Part shown: positions 26,101 to 28,467 of the stretch, piece by piece
Numbering within the stretch: position 1 is the first letter of the stretch
Layout of the letters: every line of letters begins with the position of its first letter
Assembly: GCF_001753245.1 (NCBI RefSeq)
Contig: NZ_CP017415.1
Coordinates: 1,144,501-1,208,500, forward strand
Origin: Acidihalobacter yilgarnensis
Lineage (GTDB): Bacteria > Pseudomonadota > Gammaproteobacteria > DSM-5130 > Acidihalobacteraceae
Direction of reading: 5' to 3'
Length of the DNA: 64,000 nucleotides
Notes under the pieces: generated by a model
The model's input: the letters and a program-made list of their open reading frames with translations, nothing else
Databases searched by the model: none
What the model was told of the DNA's origin: nothing
Program-made: the position numbers and the translations under genes

Positions 26101-26122
26101 GAAGCTTGAGTCGTATGCTCAT
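23018..26122 (-). CDS. membrane GGDEF-EAL cyclic-di-GMP protein with C-terminal CZB-like domain
   Basis: The 1034-residue protein has a membrane helix (about 8-28), a periplasmic sensor region (30-158), a second helix (about 160-181), HAMP (about 182-235), GAF (about 262-410), GGDEF (about 430-590), EAL (about 605-850) and a Cys/His-rich tail. The EAL domain keeps EALIRW, LEITET, DDFGTGYASL, KIDQSF and EGVET, so phosphodiesterase activity is likely. The GGDEF signature reads SGDEF and the RxxD I-site is absent, so the cyclase domain may be only regulatory. The tail holds EHHLSAC, VCRFEYWY and AHALTH, the spacing of a zinc-binding CZB domain, plus extra Cys. Its ATG overlaps the phnD-like stop by four bases. 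Confidence 0.9.
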   Translation of the reverse strand: MSIRLKLQLPLIAIMASLLVMVSALHYFWLPNVDEAATAQIEAKTVKQMQVIATSIAAPLESGNMALIDDNLRLMQRQYPHWIEITLRNNDGVRLYPLFGTPQNPKDHAFVHQVGDGIAYRQSVHLTLPIIGTDDKRIGYLQVSVDDHELEQVEHYTILEAQIGLAVLMLLVLLGGLLVQDRWVTKPIRLLVMATQRLAKGQYDTALSTASKDEIGQLAISFDRMRHKVHRREQSLIKARTEAERLRDTYAALSSLNSFIAERPAPAALFRRAGEIIQQSLRPDFLWIARVDWQALRLHSEVVSPQPEQPEELAHIEQAIAAIRIDASSESNVFQRLLLSAEVQCLPDIFKTPALGAWPFLLKEFGIRSLALAPIMRQNRVEAIVAIFSARDEVCEQAKLKLFGELAERIGLSLEDYAKEQELQRNALYDPMTHLPNRTLFMGRLTELRAKALVHRQSSPFAIGILDLMGLKSINDRLGHNSGDRVVNEAARRLETFRQGEDLVARLSGDEFGLILYPRAGDPHWHDTLKRLLNDLGTPLTLPEGEIVNIQAHIGLAQCPGDGRHPESLLRRADLALHEAKLGEDSGYCFFHPKMEEQMLNRHRVQREFLESIHACHLVLHYQPQMDVASCRVIGFEALIRWPLANGGHRPANEFIGLVEADGRLIRSLGRYVLEQALSQLTTWRAQGFETTVSINIGARHLLAPEFLEDVDTALRKHPVSRTALKLEITETAYLSDLEKTAEVLAACRARGLKIALDDFGTGYASLSYLQRLPCDQIKIDQSFIRQLLDNPQNQAIVAALITAARLLDIEIIAEGVETAEHALRLLEMGCLLAQGYAAARPMPPEAVIDWTRQQQPNQTLPEWAHHAATPRDCRLLAIATEHHLSACLSCEHAEGMAFGDISIAGQGLSVCRFEYWYAAEGLALFGEHPDFDRLGEAHALTHKTEGLACETCQQAEDGCEHAVTPAAMADIRDAQRAFFELFWSVVGSSETGITTRSAGGTAPKDPSQALRNLRERAIAWCDIHQGPDRDTTE

Positions 26123-27050
26123 GGCGCTAAGTCCGGCACCACATATTGAGGCAGGTTCAGCGTCTCTAGCGGTTTGTAGCGCGAATACTCGACCCGCCCG
26201 ATATGCCCAATTGGTACAGCTCCCAGCAACCGCCGGCCTTCCACGGAGTCATCCAGGTCAAGCAGTGCCTGGGTGATGCGCCGGATCACCGCTTCGGGTA
26301 CGCGGGGATTGACGGCGATCGGGTGGGTGGGCGCGCCGGGCGTGCGGTAGATGATGCGCAAGCGCTCCTGTACGGCTTTGGGTTGTAGGCGCAGGGTCGT
26401 GATTATTCCGCCACCGGCAGGTGCAAGCCCCAGCGCCACATCCAGATAGACGGAGGTATGGTTGACGACATACCACGGGTCCACCGAGACACCGAATTGG
26501 CGATACAGCTGCGCGCGCACGAGCAGAGTTGCAGCATAGGCATTCGGCGCGGGGAAGGCCATGCGACGACCGGCCAGTGCCTCGACGGAATGGATGGGGC
26601 CACTCTTGCGCACGACCACGATCCCGTGCATTTGGCGGCTGACGTCCGCGACCAGTGGGCGATAACCTTCGCGTCGATGGGCGACGAGTAGGTGATAGGG
26701 ATTCATGTAGGCGAAGTCGTAGTGGCCCGCGTAGAGGGCGCGTTCGAAGCTCGGGATGTTCTTGGGCACCACCAGCTTGAGGCGCACGCCGGCGGTCCGT
26801 TCGACGGCTTAAAGCAAAGGCTTCCAGATATCTTCGGTGCGCATCGGCGTGAACTGAGGCACGATGGCAAAGCTGTAGATCGGCGGGGGGGGATCGCGGT
26901 TGTGGGGCCATCTTCCGCGCGGGCCACGCCAATCCAGAAACTGGTCAGCAGCGCCAAGCATACCCATAGGGGCCGCTGCCATGAGGGGCTGGGCGCGCCG
27001 GGTCTGGTGAGTCGCTGGAAATGACGGTTTTGACGTCTTTTTATAGTCAT
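26119..27050 (-). pseudogene. PhnD/phosphonate-type periplasmic binding protein, broken by frameshift and stop
   Basis: The ATG at 27048-27050 opens a signal peptide ending GVARAED. The frame then breaks at a C8 run (minus strand; 26885-26892), after which IYSFAIVPQFTP, typical of PhnD-like binding proteins, continues in another frame. That frame meets an in-frame TAA (26809-26811) after EDIWKPLL; beyond it AVERTAGVRLKLVVPKN, SFERALYAGHYDFAYMNPYH and the rest continue to 26119. One missing C explains the first break. The TAA needs a base change, e.g. Glu GAA to TAA. Its stop overlaps the GGDEF-EAL start, so it probably encoded a periplasmic sensing partner. Confidence 0.82.
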
Positions 27051-27135
27051 GTGATGAGCATAGACCGTGTCCCGCCAACCGGCATGCCGGCAACGCAATT
27101 GACACTCCGAAGGCGCGGTAGTAGCGTTGCCAGCC

Positions 27136-27187
27136 AGCGCCGATTTGAGTCTTCAGCTTGCGGGCGCTTAATAAATGCGGCTAAAGC
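27136..27187 (+). promoter_or_regulatory. SAM-II riboswitch (metZ leader)
   Basis: The stretch matches the SAM-II aptamer by eye. The P1 stem AGCGCC (27136-27141) pairs with GGCGCT (27163-27168). The loop begins GATTTGA and contains GCTTGC. The 3' part reads TAATAAATG then GGCTAAAG, the conserved A-rich segment and GCUAAA of the class. It lies 96 bases before metZ, and SAM-II typically controls methionine genes such as metA, metX and metZ. GGCTCCG (27201-27207) could pair with the metZ Shine-Dalgarno region CGGAGGCC (27271-27278) with a one-base bulge; this part is speculative. Confidence 0.8.
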
Positions 27188-27282
27188 GAGAGGCCCTGCA
27201 GGCTCCGCTTCAAGCCATTCGCGGGGTCGCCTTGTGTCCGGCCCCGTCTTGCGATCAGATCATGCCACAGCGGAGGCCGTTC

Positions 27283-28467
27283 ATGAGCATGGATTCAGAC
27301 GAGCAGTACGGTTTCGAAACACTGGCGGTACGCGCCGGCCAGGTGCGTACCAACGAGGGCGAGCATTCCGAGGCGATTTTCACGACCTCCAGCTTTGCCT
27401 TTGGCAGCGCGGCCGAGGCCGCAGCCCGTTTTTCCGGCGAGGAGCCGGGGAATATCTATTCGCGATTCACCAATCCGACGGTACGTACCTTCCAGGACCG
27501 GCTTGCGGCGCTGGAAGACGGTGAGGCTTGCGTGGCCACGTCCTCTGGCATGGCGGCCATCCTGGCGACCTGCATGGCCTTGTTGCAGCAGGGCGATCAC
27601 GTGATTTGCTCGCGTAGCGTGTTCGGGACCACCACCGTGCTTTTCGACCGATACCTGCGGCGATTCGGTATCGACGTCGACTTCGTGGCCCAGACCGATC
27701 TCGAAGCCTGGCAGGCCGCGATCAAACCGAACACCCGCTTATTGTTCGTCGAGACACCGTCGAATCCGTTGACCGAGATCGTGGATATCGCGGCGCTGGC
27801 TGAGATTGCGCATCGCGGCGGCGCTTTGCTGGTGGTAGACAATTGCTTCTGCACGCCTGCCTTGCAGCGACCGCTCGCCTTGGGTGCAGATATCGTGGTG
27901 CATTCCGCGACCAAGTATCTGGACGGACAGGGGCGGGCCGTTGGTGGCGCCGTTGTCGGCGATGCGGAACGGGTGGGCAAGGAAGTCTTCGGCGTGTTGC
28001 GCACCGCTGGCCCAACCATGAGCCCGTTCAATGCATGGATTTTCATGAAGGGTCTGGAAACGCTTAGCTTACGCATGCGGGCACACTGCGCGCACGCGCA
28101 GCGTCTCGCCGAGTGGCTGGAGGCTCAGCCGCAGGTCGCGCAGGTGCATTATCCGGGTCTGGCGTCGCACCCACAGCACGCACTGGCCGGTCGCCAACAG
28201 AGCGGTTACGGCGGCATCGTGTCCTTTGAAGTGCGTGGCGGCCAGGCGGCAGCCTGGCGTGTGGTCGATGCCACTCGCATGATCTCGATTACAGCGAATC
28301 TGGGCGACGCCAAGACCACCATTACGCACCCGGGCACCACGACCCACGGTCGGTTGAGCGCCGAGCAGCGTGCCGAAACGGGTGTTGCCGATGGTTTGTT
28401 GCGCGTGGCCGTCGGCCTGGAGTCGGTGGACGATATCATTGCGGACTTGGCGCGCGGTCTTGGCTGA
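27283..28467 (+). CDS. metZ: O-succinylhomoserine sulfhydrylase
   Basis: MetZ makes homocysteine directly from O-succinylhomoserine and sulfide, using PLP. The 394-residue protein starts at ATG 27283 with GGAGG six bases upstream; an in-frame reading from 27175 begins inside the riboswitch. The PLP lysine is about Lys211 in SATKYLDGQGR, and YSRFTNPT, SSGMAAI and ETPSNPLTEIVDI are gamma-family motifs. The run DGQGR and the position after purF (as in Pseudomonas) support MetZ over MetB or MetC. Confidence 0.93.
   Translation: MSMDSDEQYGFETLAVRAGQVRTNEGEHSEAIFTTSSFAFGSAAEAAARFSGEEPGNIYSRFTNPTVRTFQDRLAALEDGEACVATSSGMAAILATCMALLQQGDHVICSRSVFGTTTVLFDRYLRRFGIDVDFVAQTDLEAWQAAIKPNTRLLFVETPSNPLTEIVDIAALAEIAHRGGALLVVDNCFCTPALQRPLALGADIVVHSATKYLDGQGRAVGGAVVGDAERVGKEVFGVLRTAGPTMSPFNAWIFMKGLETLSLRMRAHCAHAQRLAEWLEAQPQVAQVHYPGLASHPQHALAGRQQSGYGGIVSFEVRGGQAAAWRVVDATRMISITANLGDAKTTITHPGTTTHGRLSAEQRAETGVADGLLRVAVGLESVDDIIADLARGLG

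Follow-up and report, generated by a model that had tools for sequence, protein, structure and literature searches.

How a SAM-II aptamer could control metZ from a position well upstream of the ribosome-binding site is the question raised by this locus in the window (the whole 64,000-nucleotide stretch of DNA analysed here). The element in front of metZ is almost certainly a SAM-II riboswitch for this gene: its aptamer is conserved in relatives, and on this sequence evidence it would be expected to bind SAM. As a SAM-II riboswitch it is unremarkable and firmly supported, and the missing terminator in its family is the notable point. Our main reading, to which we give a probability of roughly 0.6, is that the element is a SAM-II OFF switch for metZ that would act in the window's family through a translational relay. 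The features of the locus are collected in Table 1.

Table 1 Features of the metZ leader in the window
Feature	Coordinates	Strand	Remarks
Probable sigma-70 promoter	27099..27127	+	TTGACA-N17-TAGCGT; predicted start site a few bases 5' of P1
SAM-II aptamer	27136..27193	+	RF00521 30.1 bits; R1 76.5 bits, E 8.6e-20; pairing of P1, P2 and P2a
P1 stem	27136-27141 with 27163-27168	+	AGCGCC with GGCGCT
Conserved aptamer blocks	27142-27148; 27156-27161; 27173-27176; 27179-27186	+	GATTTGA; GCTTGC; AAAT; GGCTAAAG
P2	27155-27157 with 27180-27182; 27160 with 27178	+	includes AGC with GCU, plus G27160-C27178
P2a		+	CUUC / GCGAGAG segments
Anti-P2 hairpin	27179..27216	+	about -17.6 kcal/mol; uses the aptamer 3' P2 strand; alternative to the SAM-bound pseudoknot
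Hairpin T1'	27192..27228	+	-17.2 kcal/mol; stands where relatives have the terminator stem; followed by GCCUUGU, no U tract
CTCCGCT	27203..27209	+	exact complement of AGCGGAG 27269-27275; minor alternative
Hairpin T2	27221..27247	+	-15.0 kcal/mol; proposed to lock the anti-ribosome-site strand without SAM
Proposed ribosome-site sequestering helix	27239..27279	+	-16.1 kcal/mol; CGGCCCCGT 27239-27247 with GCGGaGGCCG 27270-27279; prediction only
metZ ribosome-binding site	27272..27276	+	GGAGG, six bases 5' of ATG 27283
metZ, O-succinylhomoserine sulfhydrylase	27283..28467	+	394 aa; NF006003 710.6 bits (cut-off 522); TIGR01325 592.9 bits (cut-off 510)

The SAM-II aptamer in front of metZ

An Rfam scan of the whole window at gathering thresholds returned only tRNAs and no SAM-II, and the assignment therefore depended on sub-threshold evidence. 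The first-pass annotation had placed a SAM-II aptamer before metZ and named a search with RF00521 as a check. This search, run permissively over 27000-27320 (321 bases), aligned the model over its full length (positions 1-79) to 27127-27209 of the plus strand with 30.1 bits (E 3.7e-5), below the gathering score of 36 bits. Across the 3.57-Mb single-contig genome the same element was the best place for RF00521 (30.1 bits, E 1e-4), with the runner-up at 18.7 bits. All 14 control genomes also matched at the permissive E of 10, so that only the top place of a genome is meaningful.

We collected 80 metZ loci from named genomes by protein search, many of which showed SAM-II-like blocks ahead of metZ in a pattern scan. 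The covariance model R1 was built from alignment A2, which holds 30 metZ-leader aptamers, none of them from the window's family; L046, L058 and L066, where the loose pattern had matched purF, and L045, which has the same aptamer as L034, were left out beforehand. R1 matched the window at 27135-27193, and the runner-up in the 64 kb scored 13 bits. Among 84 sources (the window and L009-L091), scores above 60 bits were obtained in 35. Four of these were the window and three family genomes; the other 31 came from the 80 metZ loci and included the 30 used to build R1. All of these matches lay upstream of metZ, and the next match scored 16 bits. No R1 aptamer match was found in L014, L015 and L017, which are among the closest metZ loci and whose leaders were inspected by eye.

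The pairing pattern was consistent with this assignment. When P1, P2 and P2a of 29 distinct leaders were read as a pseudoknot, 93.1% of the pairs were standard, compared to at most 49.1% when the pairing was slid by 1-3 columns, and two-sided changes occurred in P1 and P2a among relatives. The window has the P1 stem and the P2 pseudoknot pairs, and the elements named in the first-pass annotation (P1, GATTTGA, GCTTGC, AAAT and GGCTAAAG) were all found where it had put them. The ligand-contacting bases of SAM-II are given as U10, U11, A20, U21, U22, U46, A47 and A49 in the numbering of PMC11508383 (available text). Compared block by block, the GATTTG, TTGC and GCTAAA blocks, which are present in the window and invariant in A2, should hold most of them. 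Two covariance models thus bear out the earlier placement of the aptamer, as do the conserved pairing of the pseudoknot and the synteny seen in relatives. The SAM-II aptamer, its metZ target and even the terminator platform are already known, and the window adds a new member to the class.

By eye, the promoter hexamers recur with the same spacing in all three same-genus genomes (G000, G001 and G002) and are not evident in G003. A consensus scan gave no promoter site because TAGCGT fits TATAAT at only three of six positions. On the minus strand, a gene divergent from metZ (26119-27105) reads by eye like a phosphonate/phosphate-type binding protein and is apparently broken into frames. A run of eight G near this broken gene (26885-26892) may reflect a pseudogene, a phase-variable tract or a sequencing error.

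Terminators in related leaders and their absence in the window's family

The first-pass annotation counted 96 bases between the aptamer and the start codon, where its own end at 27187 leaves 95 bases before ATG 27283, and considered the platform atypical on account of this distance. Aptamer-to-metZ distances of 46-275 bases are usual for such leaders, since most of them hold a terminator; what remains atypical is the absence of a terminator.

In relatives, the last aptamer strand GCTAAAGC can pair with the 5' arm of a hairpin ending in a U tract, an arrangement that is a classic antiterminator/terminator pair. Under our tighter criteria, an intrinsic terminator stood beside the aptamer in 44 of 51 distinct non-family metZ linkers and in 108 of 510 shuffles, counts in which the leaders are not phylogenetically independent. 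The shuffles retain the T-rich composition and are therefore a hard control. The tighter criteria were used because a looser scan (46/55 linkers, 60/275 shuffles) accepted some implausible hairpins, for example in L012, L095 and L105. Before the count of 55 we removed L109 and L113, which duplicate the loci of L001 and L010, as well as identical linkers and any leader lacking a metZ match at 20-400 bases downstream. The duplex between the aptamer strand and the terminator arm had a mean of -9.9 kcal/mol, compared to -5.4 kcal/mol for shuffled arms, and was better than these in 38 of the 44.

By the same tighter criteria none of the four leaders of the window's family had an intrinsic terminator, and no terminator-like site was found in 26950-27320 of the window. 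Since the four leaders are related, this absence may be a single event. Among the three same-genus genomes the aptamers were identical at 56-57 of 58 positions and the linkers at 34/83, 38/73 and 57/83, which implies selection on the aptamer alongside a changing output part. G004, a fifth genome of the family, has metZ (76% identity) and gave no aptamer match. In the family's other genus, the leader L011 of G003 has a wholly different linker of 66 bases; here CCCGCAAGCTG can pair with the aptamer's own CAGCTTGCGGG and is a different anti-aptamer strand.

Output of the leader

The proposed mechanism is an OFF switch for metZ. Abundant SAM would close the aptamer into the pseudoknot, which would take the GGCTAAAG strand from the anti-P2 hairpin. 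In most related bacteria, loss of anti-P2 would let the intrinsic terminator form just downstream. In the window's family the U tract of the terminator is gone, and the leader most likely acts on translation. With SAM bound, T1' would form and T2 would be excluded, and the freed CGGCCCCGT strand would cover the ribosome site; without SAM, anti-P2 and T2 would form first during transcription and leave the site open. We regard repression through ribosome-site sequestration by such a chain of hairpins as an even bet. T1' is probably homologous to the terminator of relatives, judging from its position and its GCGGG 3' arm.

Folding predictions showed that anti-P2, T1', T2 and the sequestering helix overlap in series, each excluding the next, with similar strength. 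For transcripts ending at 27248-27260, which do not yet contain the ribosome site, T2 was predicted. In equilibrium folding, the accessibility of the ribosome site from the free to the SAM-bound state fell from 0.67 to 0.01 in G001, where none of 200 linker shuffles was as good, and from 0.69 to 0.30 in G003, where about 1% of 200 shuffles were. G002 had no ligand-dependent switch beyond that of shuffles (0.23, 0.20), its site being predicted closed in both states, and the window's site was likewise predicted to be closed in both (0.20, 0.20), the same as with shuffled linkers. Switching at equilibrium is thus not supported for the window, whose model depends on the kinetics of folding. The barrier estimated with findpath was 13-18 kcal/mol, a rough value. 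When P1, anti-P2 and T2 were all forced to form, the CGG with which the ribosome site begins was still paired once 15 coding bases were included, and the anti-ribosome-site strand was not the same across family members. A change of the family from termination to ribosome-site sequestration is our reading, which equilibrium folding supports for two of the four family leaders (G001 and G003) and not for the window's own. If correct, a single riboswitch aptamer would have been connected to a different output among closely related bacteria, giving an example of platform evolution that can be tested.

The first-pass annotation had also proposed that CTCCG could pair with CGGAG at the ribosome site. 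The complementarity is real and the mechanism of the right kind, but folding prefers CGGCCCCGT as the pairing strand. Mononucleotide shuffling of the linker gave the exact 7-mer match of CTCCGCT and AGCGGAG in 83 of 5000 trials.

Known SAM-II leaders offer two models for comparison. The Sinorhizobium meliloti metZ leader, for which Scheuer 2022 (PMC9373788, available text) describes a predicted terminator platform, is a SAM-II (SAM_alpha, RF00521) system that shares with the window the aptamer, the target gene, the OFF logic and a leader between aptamer and gene; in the window's leader, unlike in this one, no intrinsic terminator can be recognised. A rather unlikely alternative is that the window's leader still terminates transcription, either at T1' or T2, as a hairpin whose U tract is poor, or by way of Rho when translation is shut off. 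Termination is the common mode among the non-family metZ leaders counted above, T1' occupies the terminator position and forms in the SAM-bound fold, CCCCGUUUUGCG is kept after the T2 hairpin of G002, and terminators lacking a canonical U tail are mentioned by Barrick and Breaker (PMC2258182, available text). However, besides the lack of a terminator-like site, T1' and T2 are followed by GCCUUGU and CUUGCG, the hairpin of G001 has no U run after it, and the logic would invert if T2 were the terminator.

The second model is the compact SAM-II of the Sargasso Sea metX leader (PDB 2QWY; PMC10907184 and PMC9373788, available text), which shares with the window the aptamer core and a predicted block of translation. 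Its ribosome site lies in the pseudoknot, whereas that of the window is about 80 bases downstream; the window's aptamer ends by 27193, and its GGAGG is neither inside nor adjoining the pseudoknot. Direct occlusion as in this compact marine form, in which SAM binding would mask a ribosome site within the aptamer and translation would start at the in-frame ATG 27175 or via an upstream purine-rich stretch, appears very improbable. ATG 27175 does open the same frame (430 aa), and S. meliloti metA, translated at a distance according to Scheuer 2022, uses a distant Shine-Dalgarno sequence (PMC9373788, available text). This ATG, however, depends on the base after AAAT, which is not conserved (many relatives have AAATA or AAATC), and was rejected as a start, and metZ has its own GGAGG directly before ATG 27283. 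Decay of the output behind an intact aptamer, with metZ no longer appreciably regulated or regulated only via RNA stability, also seems improbable, if less so. The flat equilibrium accessibilities of the window and G002 and the aptamer-free metZ of G004 would fit it, but the near identity of the aptamers between species with diverged linkers argues against it. Sequestration of the ribosome site remains our preferred reading.

SAM-II, metXZ and RF02424 in gamma- and beta-proteobacteria

The first-pass annotation described the aptamer as best known from alphaproteobacteria, which holds for the literature and not for the element itself, which is widespread in gamma- and beta-proteobacteria. In the available text of the earlier surveys, SAM-II is sporadic in gamma-proteobacteria and mostly terminator-linked in alpha- and beta-proteobacteria (Barrick and Breaker 2007, PMC2258182), and many SAM-II RNAs have putative terminators, with a few found outside alpha-proteobacteria (Corbino 2005, PMC1273637). 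R1 matched 136 of 274 Gammaproteobacteria genomes at E <=1e-3. In the same 274 genomes RF00521 matched 89 at E <=1e-3, and only 24 above its own cut-off. R1 also matched 109 of 150 genomes from the order that includes the Thiobacillus genome G276, in which L084 lies. These counts suggest that SAM-II is a common methionine regulator in gamma- and beta-proteobacteria that is mostly missed at the curated Rfam cut-off, and the Rfam model seems to need gamma and beta seed sequences (24/274 vs 136/274).

For 38 of the loci fetched, among others from the 274-genome and 150-genome R1 surveys, a script grouped the largest downstream frames. Nineteen were metZ-like, and the others formed groups of five, four, four and two with four loners. 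Checked against NCBIfam, members of the non-metZ groups were MetX (three of the five), MetH (one of four), MetK (one of four) and MetF (both of two).

In Leyn 2014 (PMC4239095, available text), SAM_alpha was reported from Rhizobiales and Rhodobacterales alone, and a metXZ RNA element was presented as new in 35 beta-proteobacterial genomes, upstream of metX or metZ, including Thiobacillus denitrificans metZ. As published there, this element is a pseudoknot of six conserved regions with a terminator and has no known ligand. It shares with the SAM-II leaders the metX/metZ targets, the pseudoknot and the downstream terminator. We found SAM-II with a terminator at such genes, in the Burkholderiales metX leaders L140, L143, L151-L153, L171, L174 and L177 and in the Thiobacillus metZ leaders L084 and L123. 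The metXZ element is probably SAM-II, as judged from genes and architecture. A search of the available literature for metXZ together with SAM-II returned nothing beyond Leyn 2014.

A second family occupies the same loci. Matches of RF02424 (Bp2_287, 'Burkholderia sRNA') lie upstream of metZ and metX, and by eye 25 of the 29 listed overlapped R1 places on the opposite strand, with one more shown separately. In L162, where the order is purF, element, metZ, the RF02424 match is at L162:1501-1703. Reverse-complemented, the A-run and hairpin at the 5' end of the Rfam model correspond to the terminator of the leader. Since RF02424 coincides with SAM-II leaders on the other strand, the family looks misoriented, and it looks like SAM-II leaders read on the wrong strand. 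The minus-strand Bp2_287 match in the window (18.7 bits) was rejected as a feature of its own, being a shadow of the SAM-II element. The discoverers of RF02424 suggested a cis-acting element of methionine metabolism, and SAM-II is not named in the available text (PMC3521395); the partly available literature on RF02424/Bp2_287 likewise gave no link to SAM-II. If these assignments are true, SAM-II should absorb both metXZ and RF02424, and the orphan metXZ would gain a ligand.

We offer the joint reading more tentatively, at somewhat less than even odds: the family would have kept the SAM-II aptamer, lost the terminator and made its old arms a ribosome-site relay, moving from transcriptional to translational control; metXZ and the wrong-strand RF02424 would both be SAM-II leaders; and SAM-II would be common in gamma- and beta-proteobacteria and mostly missed by the curated Rfam cut-off.

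The surveyed loci also varied in architecture. A tandem-riboswitch survey counted 44 tandem SAM-II (PMC9481103, available text), and we observed tandem SAM-II-like pairs in L186, L187 and L188 (genome G250, which has ten SAM-II matches), L170 and L178, in which the first aptamer is followed by a terminator and the second adjoins the gene start. The genes behind these pairs had no match to metZ, metX, metH, metK or metF. The SAM-II-like leader of L179, L180, L181, L182 and L185 is shortened and lacks the AAAT block, and the starts of the genes behind it read by eye like a MetN-like ABC transporter ATPase. In the Burkholderiales aptamers of L171-L174, L176 and L177, an additional insert separates P1 from the AAAT block and reduces the scores they reach with the model. 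In L129 and L096, a SAM-II leader stands before metK, and a SAH riboswitch lies further downstream in the same locus.
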